Source: Planktothricoides sp. SR001 | GTDB lineage: Bacteria; Cyanobacteriota; Cyanobacteriia; Cyanobacteriales; Laspinemataceae | Direction: 5' to 3' | DNA: 43,712 nucleotides | Assembly: GCF_001276715.1 (NCBI RefSeq) | Contig: NZ_LIUQ01000052.1 | Span: forward strand, 1-43,712 | Shown: one piece after another, positions 695-42,600 of the stretch | Numbering within the stretch: position 1 is the first letter of the stretch | How the letters are laid out: every line of letters starts with the position of its first letter | Program-made: the position numbers and the translations under genes | The notes under the pieces: generated by a model | The model's database searches: none | What the model was told of the DNA's origin: nothing | What the model saw: only the letters and a program-made list of their open reading frames with translations

Positions 695-1100
695 AGAAAC
701 CGGGTTTCTATTAGCGTTGTTGGTTGGTAGCAAAGGTTAACGCAAGAAACCCGGTTTCCCACCGCCCCAGGGACAAGAAACCGGGTTTCTTAAGTCAACC
801 TTTGCCACCCCACCGGCCCCTCCATAGAAACCCGGTTTCTAACCTCTCCCGGCTGCCCCTGCCCCAAGGACAAGAAACCGGGTTTCTCTAAGAAACCCTT
901 GCCACCCCACCGACCCCTCCATAGAAACCCGGTTTCTAACCTCTCCAGGTTTCTAAGCGCTTCAGGTGTTGGGGCTATTTGACTTCGGCTTTCCAAGAAA
1001 CCGGGTTTCTATGATGGTTGTTGGTTGGTGGCAAAGGTTTCTTAGAGAAACCCGGTTTCTGGTCACCCCCCACCGGCCCCTACATAGAAACCCGGTTTCT
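695..1100. repeat. Cluster of nine palindromic 15-mers in REPIN-like pairs
   Basis: Nine copies of AGAAACC-N-GGTTTCT start at 695, 745, 776, 826, 873, 923, 996, 1046 and 1086 (the 745 copy ends in C instead of T). The central base gives each an orientation: G, C, G, C, G, C, G, C, C. Each G/C pair starts exactly 50 bp apart with a 35-nt spacer. Spacers of pairs 1 and 4 resemble each other (GTTGGTTGGT.GCAAAGGTT) and resemble the reverse complement of spacers 2 and 3 (CAACCTTTGCCACC), so whole 65-bp units occur in both orientations. The 1086 copy looks like a truncated unit. No convincing gene is seen in 660-1226. Confidence 0.9.
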
Positions 1101-1226: not shown

Positions 1227-3434
1227 ATGACCAGCACAGCACCAGCCCCCACCACAGTTCCGGCATTTTGCGAAGGCATCCAATATTTTGGCGAACCGTT
1301 GCCCGGATTTGACAAATATGGCCAAGAACCCGCGATCGCCCCTGGGACAAAAGCGATCGCCTCTCCGTCGGATCCTGCGGCGGTCTTTCAAACCCTTCTC
1401 GTTGCCGACGCCCTGCGTTACCTAACCATGCAAGTCACCGCCAGCAAAGCATCCGGGCACCCTGGTGGATTTGCCAGCAAAGCCGAAGTTTATGCCGCCT
1501 TGGTCATGCTGGGTTACAAAAATATCCTCACGGAAGTGGGCCACCATGCCCCCGGATTTTATAGTGCCATGTTCCTCGATCGCTCCTTAGAACAGATGGA
1601 TATCGATAACGTGCAACAAATGCGCGATCGCTTCCGGGAACACAAAGGACTCCTCGGCCACCTTTCCGGGCAAATTCCGGGACTCCTCGGACCTGCAGGC
1701 CCATTGGGACAAGGGCAACACTTCGCAATGGCTGGCGCCAAACTCCACCCCGGCGTCCTATTCCCTGTCACCATTGGCGACGGTGGACTCGGCGAACCCT
1801 ACATTATGAGTAGCATGGCCCACTTCCACACCGCCTATCCCAACGTCACCAACTTCCTGCCCATCCTGGTTTGGAACGGCTACTCCCAGGAACATCACAG
1901 CATGGTTTCCACCAAACCCAACCAGGAAATGATCGAATATTGGGAAGGCAACGGCTTCCAAGAAATCATCCTGGTCAACGCCAAAGACTTCGACGACCAA
2001 AACCAGCCCGGTGACTATGTAGACAGCACCGAATTCTCCCTAGAACAACGGCTAAAATTCACCCAAGCGGTGCTCGAAGGCGTAGACAAAGCCGCTAAAT
2101 CCGCCCTATCCGGCAAACTCACCGTCTTTATCATCAAACAACTCAAAGGGGCCGGAGTCCACGCCCGGGGCGCCAAATCCCACAACCTCTACGCCCATCA
2201 CACCCTGGACAACGCAGAAATCGTCAACGCCCTGAAAACCCGCGCCCTGTCCCCAGAAGCATGGCAACTCGTCCGCACCAACTGCGAACGGGCGGGTGGT
2301 GGTCCGGCAGTGAAAACCGTGGTGACAGAATTTGAACTACCCTTACCCGAACTGGGTCAACTACCCCTGGAAGAATATGCCGTTGGGGACAAGCAAGTCG
2401 CCACCACCGCAATGGGTGAATTAGTCGCCCATGTGGGCAAAACTGACCCCAGTTTCATCGTCTCCAACGCTGATGGTAACGCCGCTTCGGGGATTAATAA
2501 TATCAACGTTGCCCTCAAAATTGCCCACCCCACCATTGACGAAATTTACTATCAAGGGCCAGAGGGTCAAGTTTACGAACCCCTGAGTGAAGATGCTTGT
2601 GCCGGTTTAGCCGCAGGATTAGCCTTATTTGGGTCGCGGACTCTTTGGTGTTCTTATGAATCTTTTGCTATCAATGGTTTACCAATTTGGCAAACGGTGA
2701 CTCAAGCAATGGCCGAATTGCGCCGGTCTACTCCCTCCACCATTATGTTATTAACTGCCGGGGCATTAGAACAAGGACGCAACGGTTGGACGCACCAACG
2801 GCCTGAAATCGAAAACTACTTTGCCGCCATGATGCGGAATGGCAATGTGTTCCCCTTATTCCCCACCGATGCTAACAGTATTCAAGTCTGTTATGACTGG
2901 GCATTAACCACCAAAAATAAGGGCATTGTGATTATTGCCAGTAAGTCGCCGTTACCGATTTACACCACCTTTGAACAAACCCGCGAAGGCTTAGAAAAAG
3001 GGGCGATACTTCTCCAAGAAATTCCCGGAGAAAAGACCGTAGTTTTCCCAGTGGTCGGGGATATGGTTTTAGCCCCAGTGTTTGCCGCTGCGGAACAATT
3101 AAAAGCCCAAGGAATTGGCTCGAAAATTATCTCAGTTATCAATCCCCGTCGCTTATATCGTGATAGCGATACTGCCTGGGCAACCTGTTCCGAACCCGAT
3201 GGTCTTTTCTTAGAAGATGCTGACTTTGAAAAGTTCTTTGGTGGCGATGCTTTAATTGCCGTTACCGGGGGAACTTCCGCCATGTTAGAACCGATTATGT
3301 TGCGTTCTACTGCCAAGCGGGATATCTTTGCTTGGAAGCGGGGCGAAACTGCTGCCAGTGCCAATGAAGTGTTAAATATGAATGGCATTACCGCAGAAAA
3401 TATGGTCAAACGAGCCCATGAATTGTTAGGGTAA
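1227..3434 (+). CDS. Phosphoketolase/transketolase-like ThDP-dependent enzyme
   Basis: The 735-residue protein is a thiamine-diphosphate enzyme of the transketolase/phosphoketolase superfamily. Visible motifs are SGHPGG (76-81), GHHAPG (105-110), the ThDP/Mg motif starting GDG at 184-186, PILVWNGY about 30 residues later, and a pyrimidine-domain segment with NGWTHQRPE. The last resembles the NGFTHQDPG motif of phosphoketolases more than any transketolase motif, and PILVWNGY resembles the phosphoketolase PILHLNGY. Family members cleave sugar phosphates (xylulose 5-P or fructose 6-P) to acetyl phosphate, or transfer two-carbon units. Cyanobacteria carry a divergent paralogue often annotated simply as transketolase, and I think this is it; substrate is not deducible. 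The ATG is preceded by GAGGT at 1211-1215. The gene appears monocistronic and is bracketed by REPIN-like repeats on both sides. Confidence 0.75.
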   Translation: MTSTAPAPTTVPAFCEGIQYFGEPLPGFDKYGQEPAIAPGTKAIASPSDPAAVFQTLLVADALRYLTMQVTASKASGHPGGFASKAEVYAALVMLGYKNILTEVGHHAPGFYSAMFLDRSLEQMDIDNVQQMRDRFREHKGLLGHLSGQIPGLLGPAGPLGQGQHFAMAGAKLHPGVLFPVTIGDGGLGEPYIMSSMAHFHTAYPNVTNFLPILVWNGYSQEHHSMVSTKPNQEMIEYWEGNGFQEIILVNAKDFDDQNQPGDYVDSTEFSLEQRLKFTQAVLEGVDKAAKSALSGKLTVFIIKQLKGAGVHARGAKSHNLYAHHTLDNAEIVNALKTRALSPEAWQLVRTNCERAGGGPAVKTVVTEFELPLPELGQLPLEEYAVGDKQVATTAMGELVAHVGKTDPSFIVSNADGNAASGINNINVALKIAHPTIDEIYYQGPEGQVYEPLSEDACAGLAAGLALFGSRTLWCSYESFAINGLPIWQTVTQAMAELRRSTPSTIMLLTAGALEQGRNGWTHQRPEIENYFAAMMRNGNVFPLFPTDANSIQVCYDWALTTKNKGIVIIASKSPLPIYTTFEQTREGLEKGAILLQEIPGEKTVVFPVVGDMVLAPVFAAAEQLKAQGIGSKIISVINPRRLYRDSDTAWATCSEPDGLFLEDADFEKFFGGDALIAVTGGTSAMLEPIMLRSTAKRDIFAWKRGETAASANEVLNMNGITAENMVKRAHELLG

Positions 3435-3450
3435 AATAACGCCGTGGTAA

Positions 3451-3516
3451 AGAAACCGGGTTTCTATGAGTCTTTGGGCTGGGTGACAGATACTTAATCA
3501 AAGAAACCCGGTTTCT
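3451..3516. repeat. REPIN-like inverted pair after the phosphoketolase-like gene
   Basis: A G-centred 15-mer (3451-3465) and a C-centred 15-mer (3502-3516) are separated by 36 nt, starting 17 bp after the upstream stop codon. The arms are perfect reverse complements and could form a hairpin in the 3' UTR. The spacer differs from those in the 695-1100 cluster. The rest of 3435-3644 holds an AT-rich segment but no gene that I can see. Confidence 0.85.
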
Positions 3517-34640: not shown

Positions 34641-37600
34641 ATGAATCAGTTATCTTTAGGGCAAATTGTTAAAGTCCGATCGCGCCATTATTTAGTTCAG
34701 GAAATTATCCCACCGACGGAAGCAGGAAAGGATGAAAGTGTCAGTTTAGCTTGTGTGGATGATGATGCGATCGGGGAAGAATTGACCGTATTTTGGCATC
34801 GAGAACTTGATGCCAAAATTTTGCCTGAGTCCTCTTGGGATTTAGTGGCAAAAAGAGGGTTTGATCGCGGAAATGATTTTTCCGCTTATTTACATACTTT
34901 GCGTTGGAATTGTGTCACTTCCACGAAAAAAGAATTATTTCAATCTCCCTATCGGGCGGGCATTCAAATTAAAACCTATCAGTTAGAACCCCTGCGCAAA
35001 GCATTATCAATGCCACGGGTTTCTTTGTTTATTGCCGATGATGTGGGATTGGGAAAAACCATTGAAGCGGGCTTAATTTTGCGGGAAATGATTTTGCGGC
35101 AAAAAGTGAAACGAGTAGTGATTTCTTGTCCTCCGTCGGTGGTGCAACAATGGCAAGAAGAAATGGAACATCGCTTTGGGTTGCTGTTTCAAATCTTCGA
35201 TCGCGAATTTATGGCTGGTAAAAGAAGAGAACGGGGTTATGGAATTAATCCTTGGAAAACTCACAACCGATTTATTATTTCTCATGCTTTATTACGGGAT
35301 GAAATTTATGCTTCTCTTTTACGGGATTGGTTAGATAAAGATAATCTTTCTGCCGGTTCTTTGCTAATATTAGATGAAGCCCATCATGCGGCCCCATCTA
35401 GCAGTTCTCGTTATGCCGTGGATTCCCATTTAACCAAAGTTGTCCGGGAAATTGCCCCGAAATTTGAGCATAAATTATTCTTAAGTGCGACCCCGCATAA
35501 TGGCCATTCTAATAGTTTCTCTACCTTATTAGAAATTCTCGATCCGCAGCGGTTTTGTCGCGGTATTTCCGTCGATAAGAGACTATTAGAAGCGGTGATG
35601 GTACGGCGGTTAAAACAAGATTTACGGGCGATCGATCCAGCGGATTTTCCCGAACGTCTGGTGATTCCCATTATCATTGATGGGTTGCCCAAGGATGCCC
35701 CAGAGTTAAAATTAGCGGAATTATTGCAAGCTTATCGCAGTAGTCGAGAAGAACGGTTAAAAACTGCTAAGAAGTCAACCCAAACTACGGCTATTTTGGT
35801 GTTAACTTCTTTGCAAAAACGGCTGTTGTCTTCTATTGAGGCTTTTGCCCGGACTTTGCAGGTGCATCGGCAGTCCATTGAACGGGCAATAGAGAAGTCA
35901 AAATCGACTAATTTATCGAGTTTTTCCGCTTTTTCCGCTGATTCTGGGCGTTATGCTTTATTGCAGGAAAGTATTAGCAGTGATGACGATCGCGCTGATT
36001 TAGCAGAAGCGGAAGTGGAGGCAGAAGAAGAAGCGCAAATGACCGCTGCTTCTCAGGCAATTGCTCAAGATTTGGGGCAAGTTTCTCCCCAGGAGTTACA
36101 GTTATTAGCAACTATGGCGGATATTGCGGACACTGCCCGCTATCAACCCGATAGTCGGATGGTAAAATTAATTGAGTGGATTCGGGAAAACCTTTGTCCC
36201 AATTTAGGGCAACCTGGGGCGCAATGGCACGATCGCCGTGTATTAATTTTTACCGAATATGCGGATACTAAACGCTATTTGGAACGGCAGCTAAAACAGG
36301 CGATCGCGAATTCTGACCAAGCAGAAAACCGAATTGCCACGTTTCATGGGGGTATCGGGGACGATCGCCGCGAGGAGATTAAAAAAGCATTTAATGAGAA
36401 TCCAGCCCAGCATCCGTTACGGATTTTAATTGCTACCGATGCTGCGAGAGAAGGGGTGAATTTACAAAACTATTGCGCCGATTTATTTCACTTTGATTTA
36501 CCCTGGAATCCTAGCCGCATGGAACAGCGCAATGGTCGCATCGATCGCAAGTTGCAACGAGAGACAATTGTCCGCTGTCACTATTTTATTTTGCAGCAAC
36601 GTTCCGAGGATCGGGTTTTGGATGTGTTGGTGAAAAAAACCCAGACTATTTTGCAAGAGTTGGGCAGTTTATCCCCCGTAGTGGAGAAAAATTTAACCCA
36701 AATTTTAGATGCGGGCATTTCCGCAAAAGAAGAGGGGAAACTTACGGAGGCGATCGCCCAATCCAGCGAAACCGGATTTGATGAAAAAACTCGCGTCATT
36801 CAAGGAGAACTGGAACCGATTCGGGAACAACAGCAAAAACTCTATCAGCAGCAGGAAGAATTAGAGGAAATTTTGCAAAAGTCCCGGCAATGGTTAGGAC
36901 TTGATGACATTCATTTTCGCCATGCCCTTTCTGTGTCTTTGCAGTTAATGGGGGCTGAAGGTTTACAGCTTGAAAGTTCCGCCGCGAATTCTGCCGATCG
37001 CTATGTCGATCGCTATATTTTGCCGAACTTAGACCAACAAACTGGGGATGCAACTTGGGCAAATACTCTTGATAGTTTGCGATCGCCGCGAACCAAGGGC
37101 AAAACTCTCTGGGACTGGCGCCGAGAAACTCCGATTCGTCCCGTGGTATTTCGTGACCCTGGAACTTTAGACGGGGAAGTTGTCCATCTACATTTAGAAC
37201 ATCGTTTAGTTCAGCGGTTATTAGGGCGATTTTTATCTCAAGGTTTTGCCCAAGACCAGTTAACTCGCGCTTGCGTTTGCTTCACTAATGATGCTATTCC
37301 TAAAGTGGTTATTTTGGGGCGGTTATCTTTATATGGCGATCGCGCAGCCCGACTCCATGACGAAATTTTGGCCGTTGCTGCCCAATGGAATAACCCAGAA
37401 AGTCGGGGGCGGGGCAAATTACGGCCTTTGTCGGAAACAGAAAAAGCCAATGTCATGGACGAGTTAGAAACTTGTTTGGGCGATCGCCTCTTACGCAATG
37501 TCCCCGACCAGCTATTAGACCGATTTAAGGCTTATGTTTCTCAAGATGTTGCCGAATTAAAAGGGCATTTGGCAAAACGGGCAGAAATTATCAGCGATCG

Positions 37601-37898
37601 GGCCATTCGAGAACTCACCAAACGGGGAGAACAAGAAGCCAAAGAAATGCAGCAACTTTTAACCCAACAACGCGATCGCATCCTCGATCAACAAAAAATC
37701 GAAGCCTATCAACTTTCTCTATTTAATACCGATGAAAAGCGACAAATAGAAGCCGATCGCCGTTACTGGGAAATTCGGTTAGACCAACTAACCGAAGAAA
37801 TTAATACGGAACCGGAACGGATCGAACAAAGCTACCAAGTAAAAGCCATCCGCATAGAACCCGTTGGGGTCGTCTATTTATGGCCGACTTCCAGTTAA
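34641..37898 (+). CDS. drmD: DISARM SNF2-like helicase DrmD
   Basis: The 1085-residue protein is an SNF2-type ATPase with motif I DDVGLGKT (133-140), motif II DEAH (245-248), motif III LSATPHNGH and C-terminal motifs (FTEYADTKRYLE, IATDAAREGVNLQ, NPSRMEQRNGRIDR). The N-terminal VRSRHYLVQEIIPP, HTLRWNCVTSTKKELFQSPYRAGI and PRVSLFIADDVG stretches match DrmD, the class 1 DISARM helicase, as I remember it. The C-terminal 400 residues have a coiled-coil-rich region (PIREQQQKLYQQQEELEEILQ). DISARM restricts phage DNA using host methylation to mark self. Codons for ETGFDEKTRV (about 36767-36797) look like an eroded copy of the local palindromic repeat. No ribosome binding site is evident; the leader is A/C-rich. 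Confidence 0.85.
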   Translation: MNQLSLGQIVKVRSRHYLVQEIIPPTEAGKDESVSLACVDDDAIGEELTVFWHRELDAKILPESSWDLVAKRGFDRGNDFSAYLHTLRWNCVTSTKKELFQSPYRAGIQIKTYQLEPLRKALSMPRVSLFIADDVGLGKTIEAGLILREMILRQKVKRVVISCPPSVVQQWQEEMEHRFGLLFQIFDREFMAGKRRERGYGINPWKTHNRFIISHALLRDEIYASLLRDWLDKDNLSAGSLLILDEAHHAAPSSSSRYAVDSHLTKVVREIAPKFEHKLFLSATPHNGHSNSFSTLLEILDPQRFCRGISVDKRLLEAVMVRRLKQDLRAIDPADFPERLVIPIIIDGLPKDAPELKLAELLQAYRSSREERLKTAKKSTQTTAILVLTSLQKRLLSSIEAFARTLQVHRQSIERAIEKSKSTNLSSFSAFSADSGRYALLQESISSDDDRADLAEAEVEAEEEAQMTAASQAIAQDLGQVSPQELQLLATMADIADTARYQPDSRMVKLIEWIRENLCPNLGQPGAQWHDRRVLIFTEYADTKRYLERQLKQAIANSDQAENRIATFHGGIGDDRREEIKKAFNENPAQHPLRILIATDAAREGVNLQNYCADLFHFDLPWNPSRMEQRNGRIDRKLQRETIVRCHYFILQQRSEDRVLDVLVKKTQTILQELGSLSPVVEKNLTQILDAGISAKEEGKLTEAIAQSSETGFDEKTRVIQGELEPIREQQQKLYQQQEELEEILQKSRQWLGLDDIHFRHALSVSLQLMGAEGLQLESSAANSADRYVDRYILPNLDQQTGDATWANTLDSLRSPRTKGKTLWDWRRETPIRPVVFRDPGTLDGEVVHLHLEHRLVQRLLGRFLSQGFAQDQLTRACVCFTNDAIPKVVILGRLSLYGDRAARLHDEILAVAAQWNNPESRGRGKLRPLSETEKANVMDELETCLGDRLLRNVPDQLLDRFKAYVSQDVAELKGHLAKRAEIISDRAIRELTKRGEQEAKEMQQLLTQQRDRILDQQKIEAYQLSLFNTDEKRQIEADRRYWEIRLDQLTEEINTEPERIEQSYQVKAIRIEPVGVVYLWPTSS
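36767..36797 (+). repeat. Eroded palindromic pair inside drmD
   Basis: GCGAAACCGGATTTGATG followed by AAAAAACTCGCG translates as SETGFDEKTRV. Compare ETGFLKETRFL from the intact 33-bp compact pair in drmMI at 41387-41419. Spacing and residues match with several substitutions, so this is probably an old in-frame insertion that has drifted. Confidence 0.4.
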
Positions 37899-37908
37899 TT
37901 TAAAATCA

Positions 37909-37923
37909 AGAAACCGGGTTTCT
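37909..37923 (+). repeat. Single 15-mer, apparently a REPIN cut by another repeat
   Basis: A G-centred 15-mer 10 bp after the drmD stop is followed by ATTCGGGATAT, the same spacer start as the pairs at 39322 and 39407. It then switches to TAGGGGCAAAGCATTCCGG, the first arm of the 90-bp array. Its C-centred partner is missing, so the array seems to have been inserted into, or to have replaced, the rest of a REPIN. Confidence 0.75.
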
Positions 37924-37935
37924 ATTCGGGATATG

Positions 37936-38278
37936 TAGGGGCAAAGCATTCCGGCGGGTAATTTAATATATAAACGACAATTTATTTACCGGAATGCTTT
38001 GCCCCTACAGCCCTGGTTGTGGGATCAGGGCGAAGCATTCCGGTATTTAGGTTAACGGTTTAAGCAATAATTTATCTGCCGGAATGCTTCGCCCCTACAG
38101 CCCTGGTTGTGGTGTTAGGGCGAAGCATTCCGGTATTCAGGTTAATGTTTTCAGCAATAATTTATCTGCCGGAATGCTTTGCCCCTACAGCCCTGGTTGT
38201 GGGATCAGGGCGAAGCATTCCGGTATTTAGGTTAACGGTTTAAGCGATAATTTATCTGCCGGAATGCTTCGCCCCTAC
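37936..38278. repeat. 90-bp tandem array of hairpins after drmD
   Basis: CCGGAATGCTTYGCCCCTAC starts at 37989, 38079, 38169 and 38259, an exact 90-bp period, preceded by an inverted copy of the arm at 37936. Each unit has that arm, a CAGCCCTGGTTGTGGGAT-type loop, the complementary arm (AGGGCGAAGCATTCCGG) and an AT-rich linker (ATTTAGGTTAACGGTTTAAG). Units are nearly identical, so recent amplification is likely. The gap 38279-38429 has a GGTGCGTTACGGTGCG / CGCACCTAACACACC inverted remnant and no gene. Confidence 0.92.
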
Positions 38279-38429
38279 AAAATATCTTTGTGTTTCTTTG
38301 TGTCTTTGTGGTAAAAAATTAATATGGTGCGTTACGGTGCGGATTTTGATATAATGGTTAATAAATTACATTGTCGCCGCACCTAACACACCCTACGTTT
38401 GTGGGAAAAAATTAACTAAACACCCGCAG

Positions 38430-38780
38430 TTAACCCAAGAAACCGGGTTTCTGAGGACGAATAATTTTAATTAACTGGCAACGCAAAGTTTCTTGACCAA
38501 TAATTGCGTCATTAATACTTGCCGCTTGTCGTTCAATATTTAAGTCTTCTTTACAAAGAATAATCCCAAAATGCTCAGATTGCACTCGGTGTAGTCGTCG
38601 AAAATCATCCCAATTTCGAGTTAAAATTGCCCGTTCATTTTTAATGGCAAATTCTAAAACCTCTTCATCAGGAATTCCTAAGCCAGAATTTCCAGCCTCT
38701 TCCGTGGTCAGGACATCGTGACCCGCTTCTCGCAATAATTTAACAATGGGTAAAGGGAAATTTTCGTCAGCATAAAGACG
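38430..38780 (-). pseudogene. DUF5615 PIN-like toxin, start removed by REPIN insertion
   Basis: On the minus strand the frame from 38780 reads RLYADENFPLPIVKLLREAG, the canonical DUF5615 (Mut7-C/PIN-like) N-terminus with the catalytic Asp in ADEN, then GHDVLTTEEAGNSGLGIPDEEVLEFAIKNERAILTRNWDDF and RVQSEHFGIILC. Family members normally begin M-x-R/K-LYADE. Here the codons directly upstream belong to a palindromic repeat and read QKPGFS with no ATG, GTG or TTG before the next in-frame stop. The first usable start is TTG at 38735, which would omit LYADENF. So the gene is probably inactive, although the rest is intact. Its last residues (KPGFLG) are written by another 15-mer at 38438-38452. Confidence 0.75.
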
Positions 38781-38782
38781 AG

Positions 38783-38846
38783 AGAAACCGGGTTTCTGCG
38801 TAAACTTGGGGACAAAATCACAGATTAATTAAGAAACCCGGTTTCT
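38783..38846. repeat. REPIN-like pair at the antitoxin/toxin junction
   Basis: A G-centred (38783-38797) and a C-centred (38832-38846) 15-mer are separated by 34 nt. The left copy abuts the second codon of the toxin. The right copy encodes the antitoxin's last residues (ETGFL) before the stop at 38825. The spacer (GCGTAAACTTGGGGACAAAA...) resembles that of the pairs at 39240 and 39492. Confidence 0.88.
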
Positions 38847-39199
38847 GAAACATTTTCCTCATTTTCGTCGTTATCCTCATTTCTCTTAATCGCGGCATCA
38901 ATTTCTTCCGGGTGATTGTCCGCATACGCCCAAACATTGACTAAATCTTCGGCGTTTAATTGGGGAAAATCTTGTAATATTTGTAGGTCGGAAGCCCCTA
39001 AACGACGATAATTCACCAACGACCAAACAGGGATACGAGTATTAGCAATTCGCGCATCACCTCCACAAACTCCAGAGGTTTTCTCAATCCCTTGCCAAAC
39101 ATTGCTTAAGCTACGGACTAAAAATTGAATGATTTGGGCTTTTTCATGGGAATTTAAAGCTAACAATTCCCGTTCTAAATCTTTTAGAGTCATTGTCAC
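38825..39199 (-). CDS. DUF433 antitoxin, C-terminus extended by a repeat
   Basis: The 124-residue protein has a 45-residue N-terminal helix region (LKDLERELLALNSHEKAQIIQFLVRSL) and then a DUF433 domain: GGDARIANTRIPVWSLVNYRRLGASDLQILQDFPQLNAEDLVNVWAYADNHPEEID. DUF433 proteins are winged-helix DNA-binding antitoxins of DUF5615 toxins. The tail (DNDENEENV then SETGFLN) is acidic and then repeat-encoded: the last codons are the C-centred 15-mer at 38832-38846, read as ETGFL. The pair lies between drmD and drmMI but on the opposite strand, so it is a separate unit within the defence locus. Confidence 0.85.
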   Translation of the reverse strand: MTMTLKDLERELLALNSHEKAQIIQFLVRSLSNVWQGIEKTSGVCGGDARIANTRIPVWSLVNYRRLGASDLQILQDFPQLNAEDLVNVWAYADNHPEEIDAAIKRNEDNDENEENVSETGFLN

Positions 39200-39239
39200 T
39201 ATTTATTGGGAAATTTTAACTAATTTTTATTATAACCCA

Positions 39240-39554
39240 AGAAACCGGGTTTCTGCGTAAATTTAGGATAAAATCAAAAATTAATTAAGAAACCCGGTTT
39301 CTGAGTCCCCGCGTTAAACCAAGAAACCGGGTTTCTATTCGGGATATTAGAGTTATCTGTGGGATACAAAAAGAAACCCGGTTTCTGAGTCCCCACAGTT
39401 AAACCAAGAAACCGGGTTTCTATTCGGGATATTAGAGTTATCTGTGGGATACAAAAAGAAACCCGGTTTCTGAGTCCCCACAGTTAAACCAAGAAACCGG
39501 GTTTCTGCGTAAATTTAGGATAAAATAAAAAATTAATTAAGAAACCCGGTTTCT
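39240..39554. repeat. Four REPIN-like pairs in tandem before drmMI
   Basis: G/C pairs lie at 39240/39288, 39322/39372, 39407/39457 and 39492/39540, with spacers of 33, 35, 35 and 33 nt. Pairs 2 and 3 are identical in the spacer (ATTCGGGATATTAGAGTTAT) and repeat with an 85-bp period, so tandem duplication is recent. Pairs 1 and 4 share a different spacer (GCGTAAATTTAGGATAAAAT). All four are in the same orientation. They end 48 bp before the drmMI start, so any drmMI leader made upstream would be rich in hairpins. Confidence 0.93.
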
Positions 39555-39602
39555 GAACCCACCAACAACCAACAACCAACCACCAACCACCAACCAACAA
39601 CC
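39555..39602 (+). promoter_or_regulatory. Almost pure A/C leader before drmMI
   Basis: After the last repeat the sequence from about 39557 to the ATG at 39603 is entirely A and C, built of CCAACAA, CCAACCA and CCACCAA units, with no Shine-Dalgarno. An A/C leader of the same type precedes drmD. CAA-rich, unstructured leaders favour initiation without a strong ribosome binding site, a possible role here (inference). Confidence 0.6.
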
Positions 39603-42600
39603 ATGAACATCGATCGCACCTTATTTGAACATAAAGAATGGCTAGGACTGCTGCAACCCATTGGCTTAGTAGTGGCCCCACCGGCATTAATTAAAGCCCA
39701 AGCTAATATAGATCGGGGCAAACTGATCGAATTGCAGCAGAAATTTAAAGAATACTTGGCCCCGGAACCGTTGCCCAACGGTGAACCGTGGATATCAGAT
39801 TTATTAGAAATGGGCAAACAAGTATTAGAGTGGCCCGAAAAAGTCATTGTTCGCGAATTGCCCGCAGAATTAAGCGTATTTTTACGGGACTATGGAGAAA
39901 TTTTACAAGCGGATTATGCATTAAAAAATCGGGAGGGCAACGAGTGGCTATTTTTAATTAAAATAGTCTCACCGGGAACGGATTTAGATCGGGCAGAAAC
40001 GGAGAAACCGGGACAAGGCTGGAAGGCTTCCCCCCAAGCAAAATTTGAACGACTTCTCCGAGAAACCCAAAATCCCATCGGACTCTTATGTAATGGGACA
40101 GAAATTAGATTAATTTATGCCCCCAGAGGTGAATCTTCCGGTTATCTCACTTTTCCCGTAAAAGCTATGACCGAAGTCGCGGGGCGGTTAATCTTAGGGG
40201 CATTAGAAATGTTGCTAGGAAAATCCCGTTTATATACGGTGCCCGCAAAAGATCGACTGCCTCAAATTTTGGCCAACAGTCGGCAATATCAAGCGGAAGT
40301 TTCCACCCAATTATCGGCCCAAGTATTAGATGCTTTGTGGGAATTGTTGCGGGGAATGCAAACCGCAGACGCGGCAGTTCAGGGGCAATTATTAAAGGAA
40401 TTGCGGCAAAATCCAGAGGGAAAAACCCACATTTATGGCGGCTTAATTACTATATTAATGCGGTTGGTTTTTTTACTCTATGCGGAAGATGAAGGATTAA
40501 TGCCCGACGAACCCGTTTATCAGCGTTATTATGCGGTGTCGGGGCTTTATGAAAAGTTGCGAAATGATGCGGGGCAATACCCGGATACGATGGATTTGCG
40601 ATATGGGGCTTATGCGGGATTATTGAGTTTATTTCGCTTAGTTTATGATGGGGGCGGGCCCTATGAAGACTATTTACCAGCCCGACATGGGCAGTTATTC
40701 GATCCTGATGTTTATGGGTTTTTGGAAGGCAGACCGGAAGGGAGTAAATTTAAGGATATACAAGAACCTTTAAATATTCCCCAAATTCCTGATGGGGTGA
40801 TTTATCGCATATTAGATAAGCTGGTGATGTTAAATGGAGATCGCTTATCTTATCGGTCTTTAGATGTAGAAGATATTGGTTCGGTGTATGAGGGAATTAT
40901 GGGGTTTGAAGTGCAAACCGCCCCTGATTTGTCCATTGCCCTATCCCCCCAAGATATTGTGATTAATGTGGCAGAATTGTTGGCGGCAAAACCGGGCGAT
41001 CGCGCAAAATTATTGAAAGATTGGGCTGAATGTAGCCTACCGACCAAAGGGGCAACGGAGTTAAAACAGGCGAAAACCATTGAGGATATTTTAGCAGCAT
41101 TGGGGCGGCGAATTTCTGACCGAACTCATAATTTATTGCCCAAAGGTTCTTTATATTTACAACCGGGAGAAGAACGGCGGAAATCTGGTTCTCATTATAC
41201 CCCTCGCGCCTTAACAGGGCCAATAGTTGCTAATACTTTAAAGCCGATATTAGCACAATTTGGGTCTAATCCAACTGCGGAACAGATATTAAGTTTAAAA
41301 ATATGCGATCCAGCGATGGGGTCTGGGGCATTTTTAGTAGAAGTTTGCCGTCAATTGGCGGAGTTGTTGGTAGTTGCAGACGCCACAGAAACCGGGTTTC
41401 TTAAAGAAACCCGGTTTCTCTCCACGACGCAAATACCCATTATTCAAGCGAGGCGGAAAATTGCCCAACGGTGTTTATATGGGGTGGATAAAAACCCGTT
41501 TGCGGTGAATTTGGCTAAGTTATCTTTATGGTTAGTGACGTTAGCTAAAGATGCGCCATTTACTTTTGTGGATCATGCCCTGAAATGTGGGGATTCTTTG
41601 GTAGGATTGACTACTAAAGAAATCGGCGCATTTGTCGATCCTACGGCGGATTTACCGTTAAGTAAACTATTAAATAATCAGGTGAGAGAATCCGAGGATT
41701 TTCGGTTACAAATTCAGGCAACGGATACCCAGACTGATGCGGACGCGGAGGCGAATGCCGAACGGTGGAATCAGTCAGAATCGGCGTTAGAAAATGCCCG
41801 GTTTGCGGCTTGGGCAAAAGTGGCGGCTTTTTTTGATGGGGCAAGTAAGAATAAGTCGGAAAAAGCAGAAATTGAGGAAAAATATCGGCTATTAGTTGAG
41901 AACAGTTTAAGCGGTGATGGAGACGCCAGAAACCGGGTTTTTTCAAAAAACCCGGTTTCTACCTCCAACGAGGTTTCTATTCCCACCCCGTTTAATTGGG
42001 AGGTGGAATTTCCCGAAGTATTTAATCGCCCCAATCCTGGGTTTGATTGTATTGTGGGTAATCCGCCGTTTGCGGGAAAAAATACGATTATTAATGGCAA
42101 CCCAGAGGGATATGTGGATTGGTTAAAAGAAGTTCATCCCGAATCCCACGGAAATGCGGATTTAGTGGCGCATTTTTTCCGCCGTTCTTTTAATTTAATT
42201 AGAGATTATGGCACCTTGGGATTAATTGCGACAAATACTATTTCTCAAGGGGATACCCGCAGCAGTGGGTTGCGGTTTATTTGTAATCATGGCGGGATGA
42301 TTTATCATGCAACTCAGCGTTATCGCTGGCCGGGAATGGCGGCAGTTGTGGTTAGTTTAGTGCATATTTTTAAGGGAGGGAAAAATATCGGGGTGGGCAC
42401 GGGGGCACCACCCCTACAATTACCCCAACCAATTCTTGATGGTCGTCCGGTGAATAAAATTACCGCATTTTTATTTAATGACGGGGGTAATGATGACCCG
42501 AAACCTTTGTTAGCTAATGCAGAAAAAAGTTTTCAAGGCAGTATTGTTTTAGGGATGGGTTTCACTTTTGATGATAGCAATGCGGACGCGACCCCGATCG

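Follow-up and report, generated by a model that had tools for sequence, protein, structure and literature searches.

The repeat in the window

The window, by which we mean the whole stretch of 43,712 nucleotides analysed here from Planktothricoides sp. SR001, is rich in a 15-nt sequence, AGAAACCNGGTTTCT, and its inverse: 29 matches with at most two mismatches, where chance gives a mean of 0.28. At its left end stands the end of an ORF (3–659), DNA with recurring near-identical stretches that presumably are akin to WD40 repeats. Between 695 and 1100 the preliminary description had reported four pairs of opposed 15-mers—a G arm, then a C arm—held 35 nt apart, and all four are present, at 695/745, 776/826, 873/923 and 996/1046. 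Their order is always G then C, their start-to-start distance 50 and their spacer 35 nt; the single mismatch is in the C arm of the first pair. These and the other units and arms of the window are as follows (strand not applicable throughout):

695..759: doublet 1, 65 bp; 35-nt spacer between the G arm and a C arm that has 1 mismatch
776..840: doublet 2, 65 bp
873..937: doublet 3, 65 bp
996..1060: doublet 4, 65 bp
1086..1100: C arm without partner, the ninth arm of 695–1100
3451..3516: doublet, 66 bp; 16 nt past the stop of ORF 1227–3434
37909..37923: lone G arm; 10 nt past the stop of ORF 34641–37898
38438..38452: lone G arm
38783..38846: doublet, arm distance 49; within the block missing from G011
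39240..39302: array doublet, arm distance 48; within the block missing from G011
39322..39386: array doublet, 65 bp
39407..39471: array doublet, 65 bp
39492..39554: array doublet, arm distance 48
41387..41419: 33-bp form, arm distance 18, 3-nt loop; in frame inside an Eco57I/MmeI-like methylase ORF
41928..41960: degenerate 33-bp form, 1 mismatch per arm; in the same methylase ORF

All seven window units that were folded as single-stranded DNA give a stem that pairs arm with arm (z −5.5 to −7.4). The spacers of the first four doublets had been called homologous in either orientation, and in four of the six comparisons (1–4, 2–3, 2–4 and 3–4) their similarity exceeds all 2,000 shuffles; the other two are weaker, 1–2 being reached by 13 and 1–3 by 75 of the 2,000. 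Rfam, searched at its gathering thresholds, has no match for the repeat, the sole match in the window being a tRNA.

Because 33 is a multiple of three, the shorter form is able to sit inside genes. The methylase ORF that holds both in-frame 33-bp forms is 1,363 aa long and Eco57I/MmeI-like by Pfam. Clean insertion of a 33-bp copy there is unproven: the linker varies among homologues, and here it exceeds that of three of the four by about 3 aa.

Two further observations concern the right part of the window. A block at 38058–39625, with 11 arms and other DNA, is missing from the same-species genome (G011). Another long-hairpin repeat, GTAGGGGCGAAGCATNNCCG ... CGGNNATGCTTCGCCCCTAC, is unrelated to the first and occurs in many copies: at about 37930–38330 in the window, elsewhere in the same genome (G000) on C44 near 24800 and on C20 near 34350, and in G011 and the same-genus genome (G012) too. 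Two units bounded by the 15-mer sit in the loop of this second repeat.

Number, spacing and placement

The organism's own genome (G000; 7.07 Mb in 165 contigs) contains 1,359 exact copies of AGAAACCNGGTTTCT, and none of a reversed control. In the 1.06 Mb that was sampled for spacing, 64 of 81 adjacent G-C steps measure 50–52 bp, and C-G steps have no such peak. The same asymmetry runs through 2.42 Mb of G000, G011 and G012, where 195 G-then-C pairs lie 48–52 bp apart (118 at 50, 52 at 51, 21 at 52, and two each at 49 and 48), against 30 C-G pairs at 48–53 bp, again without a peak. The sharp maximum at 48–51 bp that had been predicted is thus found. A second peak, predicted at 18, is minor in these genomes (six pairs in G000, seven in G011, none in G012); it proved to be a main form in other lineages. 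The 195 doublets are not all independent, since they comprise 167 distinct sequences of which 14 occur in more than one genome. Single linkage at 72% sorts their spacers into 18 groups, the two large ones having 114 and 55 copies; two of 800 shuffled spacer pairs reach 72%, so some chaining within the groups is possible. Only 27 of the 195 doublets are isolated, and most lie in arrays.

Doublets are mostly extragenic: 11 of 68 fall inside a stop-to-stop ORF of at least 200 aa, while such ORFs cover 71% of the sequence. This placement, and the position of some hairpins 10–16 nt past stop codons, is what one would expect of intergenic hairpins retained as transcription terminators or mRNA stabilisers and immobile today. 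We regard that account as very improbable. Tandem arrays and copies within ORFs speak against it, as do a spacer whose length is fixed while its sequence varies and the association with a transposase gene, to which we now turn.

A transposase gene between copies of the hairpin

A Y1-HUH gene of the RAYT (TnpA-REP) kind, flanked by the same palindrome, had been anticipated, and G000 has two complete copies, at C143:6472-7029 and C144:12481-13038. These encode proteins of 186 aa that are 91% alike, and the arms up to 500 bp away number 2+7 and 4+8; at least two arms on each side were found in 0.217% of 100,000 random segments and at both genes. The 186-aa protein scores 84.5 bits against the REP transposase model NCBIfam NF047646 (cut-off 80), and its only sequence match in the PDB at E ≤0.001 is TnpA-REP of Escherichia coli, 4ER8, which is also the top fold match for the predicted model (pLDDT 83) of a close homologue, L090. 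NHYH and Tyr119 are invariant among 30 aligned proteins, and in the 80 listed relatives NH[YF]H occurs in 80, FQ in 76 and Y[IV]HLNP in 71. A Pfam scan of five RAYTs found Y1_Tnp alone in each, with no C-terminal HTH. Judged by these sequence and fold matches, the protein is a Y1/HUH RAYT of the TnpA-REP type.

The PF01797 profile finds six Y1 matches in G000, among them the two complete RAYTs, and a looser model nine RAYT-like ones. Flanks of the other RAYT-like genes were inspected on C5, C44 and C94 (C102, C159 and C82 being left out), and are less closely occupied: one pair lies about 250–300 bp from the C5 gene and one about 500 bp from the C94 gene; on C44, pairs lie about 1 kb from one gene and none near another. 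A different RAYT-like gene, with two internal stops in both strains (G000 C102:148526-148972; G011 C1:6956539-6956985), is apparently a pseudogene.

Hairpins beside RAYTs across cyanobacteria

Relatives of the 186-aa RAYT were collected at no fewer than 80 named loci, 52–93% identical in the best segment; those listed comprise 78 cyanobacterial loci and two from Chloroflexi-labelled MAGs. As hairpins we counted two inverted 15-nt arms, beginning AG and ending CT, with at least 13 of 15 arm pairs and a loop of 3–44 nt, within 350 bp of the gene. Such an inverted repeat is present at 77 of the 80 listed loci, and 57 of the 77 listed loci with at least 120 bp of flank per side have hairpins on both sides of the gene. 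Hairpins number 292 in 54.1 kb near the listed RAYTs, against 34 in 264.0 kb at a distance of 1.5–3.5 kb. The three listed loci without a hairpin of this description are two from Spirulina (13-nt arms, 46 apart) and one from Chlorogloeopsis.

The arms differ from group to group: AGAAACCNGGTTTCT in Oscillatoriales, AGATCCCCGACTTCT in Nostocales, AGACCTCCGAGGTTT or AGGGGTCAGGTGCCT in Leptolyngbya-like forms and AGAAACCCGCTTTCT in Microcystis, for example. The preliminary description knew the sequence as one of Oscillatoriales; repeats of the same kind with other arms extend to Nostocales, Leptolyngbya-like forms, Microcystis, others and the two Chloroflexi-labelled MAGs. The composite arm from 71 listed loci is AGA[TA][CA]CC[CG]G[GA][TC]TTCT, in a set for which AG and CT were required; with that requirement lifted, more arms begin with AG than with any other pair of letters (184 of 332). 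Beyond the arms, the base composition of the next 12 nt at these 71 loci reveals no GTAG-like tag; the sole bias is towards pyrimidines (80%), at position −2. Since arms of the form AG...CT flank RAYT genes, mostly with loops of 3 or 33–37 nt, the 15-mer is one arm of a hairpin that is associated with RAYTs and has a 33-bp and a ~65-bp form.

A different description of these loci would treat the arms as the terminal inverted repeats that bound the RAYT gene—a TIRtron, in which the gene is a TIRYT (PMC3733652)—and the dispersed copies as by-products. The motifs of the protein are those of subclass 2.1, which according to the available part of PMC6006769 probably corresponds to the TIRYTs, and the available part of PMC3733652 mentions TIRs that are self-complementary as well as TIRs that occur as dimers or clusters. 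The TIRYT motif GGGGWSAS occurs in the arms of four of the 75 labelled loci, making the link to TIRYTs real but partial; it is missing from the other 71, and from the arm of the window's genome. (Five of the 80 listed loci are unlabelled, and close variants of arm A, one of the arm types, were lumped as one state.) The C-terminal HTH was not found in the five RAYTs scanned, and at 57 of 77 listed loci a complete hairpin stands on each side of the gene, where a TIR pair would place one half. We consider this description unlikely, if worth keeping in mind; its difference from a REP-like unit is more one of naming than of mechanism.

Two sizes of hairpin

Among the 292 loops near the listed RAYT loci, 99 are of 3 nt and 101 of 33–37 nt, with unrelated arm sequences; the remaining 92 stem in part from pairing across units within arrays. 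The 65-bp pair, proposed earlier as the mobile unit, is accordingly one of two sizes, 33 and ~65 bp. Dispersed copies tend to one or the other, in the same form as beside the RAYT of that genome: among the matches listed, Roseofilum has 15 pairs at 18 and one at 48, and Kamptonema eight at 48–52 and none at 18. For a second arm type, B, 12 genomes were scanned with 20–50 nt between arms. The L151 genome has 53 places, the 48 listed all being 64–67 bp in total, and the L128 genome 16 places, 15 of 64–66 bp and one of 62. Six others have 13 places between them, of which the 11 listed span 51–66 bp, some being nested 33-mers, and in those six the ~65-bp form is thus not sharply defined; four of the 12 genomes have no arm B pair at this spacing. 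When inverted repeats are counted less strictly at the 57 loci with arms other than A, peaks appear near 33–37 and 65–68 bp, above a broad background that is partly cross-pairing in arrays. The ~65-bp size is thus met again where arms and spacers differ, though only in some lineages. Scored by majority per locus, size changes 12 times on the RAYT tree, where 200 shuffles need at least 17 changes.

One might read this as an untagged class of cyanobacterial RAYT element whose transposase gauges the distance between arms, with two interconvertible sizes (~18 and ~50) that were reached repeatedly with unrelated arms and spacers. The gap between these distances is near three turns of B-DNA. We offer the idea tentatively, as a possibility that we rather doubt. 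If true, it would imply that both arms are recognised in register, perhaps by a dimer, whereas E. coli TnpA-REP is described as a monomer.

Arms and RAYTs diverge together

On a tree of 82 RAYTs with 77 labelled rows, the 27 arm states require 26 changes, the minimum, without homoplasy; 200 shuffles of the states need at least 43. The tree is a quick one in which 35 of 79 inner branches are weak, and the absence of homoplasy rests on eight shared states, because 19 of the 27 occur once. Three genomes have two RAYT types, and each type has its own arm.

Copy numbers mostly follow the RAYT type as well, with exceptions. Arm A is present in 14–447 copies in nine genomes whose sampled RAYT has this arm, against 0–61 in 20 others (rank test P 1.7e-5, ignoring shared ancestry); three of these others, with a sampled RAYT of another arm, are exceptions at 61, 34 and 27 copies. 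Arm B, counted on both strands, is present in 3–274 copies in nine B genomes against 0–182 in 20 others (P 1.2e-4, likewise ignoring shared ancestry, and excluding G022, which has both A and B RAYTs). Here two non-B genomes have 118 and 182 copies, and one B genome three. A third arm, C, occurs in four of 30 genomes, namely both C genomes (27 and 16 copies) and two others (17 and 2), the 17 being in a genome with another arm, level with the C genomes. The exceptional genomes may have further RAYTs.

Mobility and distribution

The strain comparison used clusters that have an exact arm and lie at least 200 bp from the end of a stretch. Among the 45 G000 clusters that could be compared, 39 have the same number of arms in G011, five differ and one was called empty, a call that is not clean on inspection. 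For 48 G011 clusters sought in G000 the figures are 37, seven and four, and for ten G000 clusters sought in G012 three, five and two. Several of the 'empty' calls are not clean: one is a partial deletion with an arm remnant, and others are sites replaced by unrelated DNA. Array size, rather than single insertions, makes up most differences between near-identical strains.

One orthologous empty site is convincing. In G000 an unrelated hairpin repeat has the unit at C44:24819-24882 in its loop; in G012 that repeat is present at the orthologous site, on C17, without the unit. The empty site has about 11 nt of extra loop, and differs further to the left; with about 11 nt of the target lost, the G000 insertion is therefore not a precise one. 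It is on dispersal and on this one site, not on observed transposition, that the mobility claimed for the 65-bp pair rests. At 28 isolated doublets, target duplication does not exceed chance (0 nt in 20, 1 in seven and 2 in one; expected 22.1, 4.4 and 1.0). Transposons of the IS200/IS605 family are not known to make target duplications. The mobility data fit an IS200/IS605-like single-strand mechanism, without proving one.

All 14 genomes of the family contain the arm, in 18–1,466 copies, and five contain the RAYT at E ≤1e-10; the looser model finds matches in 12. It finds none in G001 (654 arm copies; a draft of 320 contigs), which has no RAYT-like match at all, or in G008 (115 copies); G002 (283 copies) has weak matches only, the best at 4.6e-8. 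Loss of the RAYT after the repeat had spread, or in assembly, would explain the genomes without one.

The nine RAYT-less genomes, several with hundreds of copies, and the predominance of array-size change between strains are the points in favour of a different history, in which the hairpins owe their spread to recombination, slippage and gene conversion, with the RAYT as a passenger or as a regulator that has hairpins as binding sites. We think this distinctly unlikely. Copies stand at many unrelated loci; dispersed copies share arm and loop form with those beside the RAYT; and arms show no homoplasy on the RAYT tree and go with the individual gene within three genomes.

Relation to known systems

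In Pseudomonas, the REPIN (PMC3116915; Bertels and Rainey 2011) has two conserved 16-nt inverted ends and a spacer, and forms a hairpin; GI doublets there have a start-to-start distance of 71 bp. The preliminary description had likened the window's doublets to gammaproteobacterial REPINs, and much of the likeness stands: inverted arms at fixed distance, spacers homologous to those elsewhere, high copy number (hundreds, in Pseudomonas as here), extragenic bias, a hairpin fold and a RAYT flanked by copies. The GTAG type does not, GT[AG]G being absent from the 5′ foot at the 71 RAYT loci. Unlike in Pseudomonas, as far as that text goes (PMC3116915), the 15-nt arms pair with each other, the spacing is 50 with a second form at 18, doublets lie mostly in arrays and the RAYT motifs differ.

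TIRtrons are the nearest published kin of the cyanobacterial hairpins. They too have a RAYT-like gene between inverted repeats that are not of the GTAG type, some self-complementary and some in dimers or clusters (PMC3733652, in part); the cyanobacterial unit differs in being a whole hairpin of 33 or 65 bp, in more than 1,000 copies, with arms mostly free of GGGGWSAS. No cyanobacterial TIRtron is named in the available text of PMC3733652. By motif alone (NH[YF]H, FQ and Y[IV]HLNP) our RAYT resembles TnpAY1 subclass 2.1, or Bertels group 1, of a 2018 survey (PMC6006769), whose available text gives these genes no nearby REP, a median length of 238 aa and HTH-like C-terminal domains; at 186 aa, and with no HTH match in the five proteins scanned, the RAYT studied here departs from that description. 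E. coli TnpA-REP takes a single-stranded hairpin as substrate and cleaves at CT sites, and the GTAG motif and a bulge in the stem matter to it (PMC8266576, in part). The cyanobacterial hairpins have no conserved tag, and our search for near-perfect pairing would miss bulged arms.

None of the open-access papers listed for the arm strings (in one search, 20 of 48) is cyanobacterial, although prior description in subscription journals is possible, and open-access searches for REPIN, RAYT, TnpAREP or REP with cyanobacteria return a few general papers and unrelated ones. Small mobile repeats in cyanobacteria were reportedly the subject of Elhai et al. in 2008.

Interpretation

The architecture, spacing, dispersal, RAYT association and co-divergence observed here are best explained, and in our judgement probably so, by a hairpin repeat that is non-autonomous and has a matching RAYT. 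Because the hairpins adjoin the RAYT, and related RAYTs have related arms, the two probably cooperate in copying the repeats round the genome. The unit consists of two inverted 15-nt arms, starting with AG and ending with CT, which enclose a loop of ~3 nt in the 33-bp form and of ~35 nt in the ~65-bp form; in silico it folds, as single-stranded DNA, into one hairpin with a 15-bp stem. We infer that the TnpA-REP-type Y1/HUH transposase, encoded between copies of the same hairpin, binds the hairpin formed at replication, cuts at the conserved 3′ CT, and copies or moves it to other single-stranded targets. Specificity would reside in the arms, diverging together with the RAYT, and local growth and shrinkage of arrays would follow.

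If so, an abundant cyanobacterial repeat now has a likely transposase, and a type of RAYT, assigned by motif, that was without REPs in the available text of the PMC6006769 survey gains matching repeats. The dozens of natural pairs of transposase and hairpin, including two types in each of three genomes, offer a test of how RAYTs read DNA and, with two loop sizes that recur, what a RAYT measures becomes testable in vitro.
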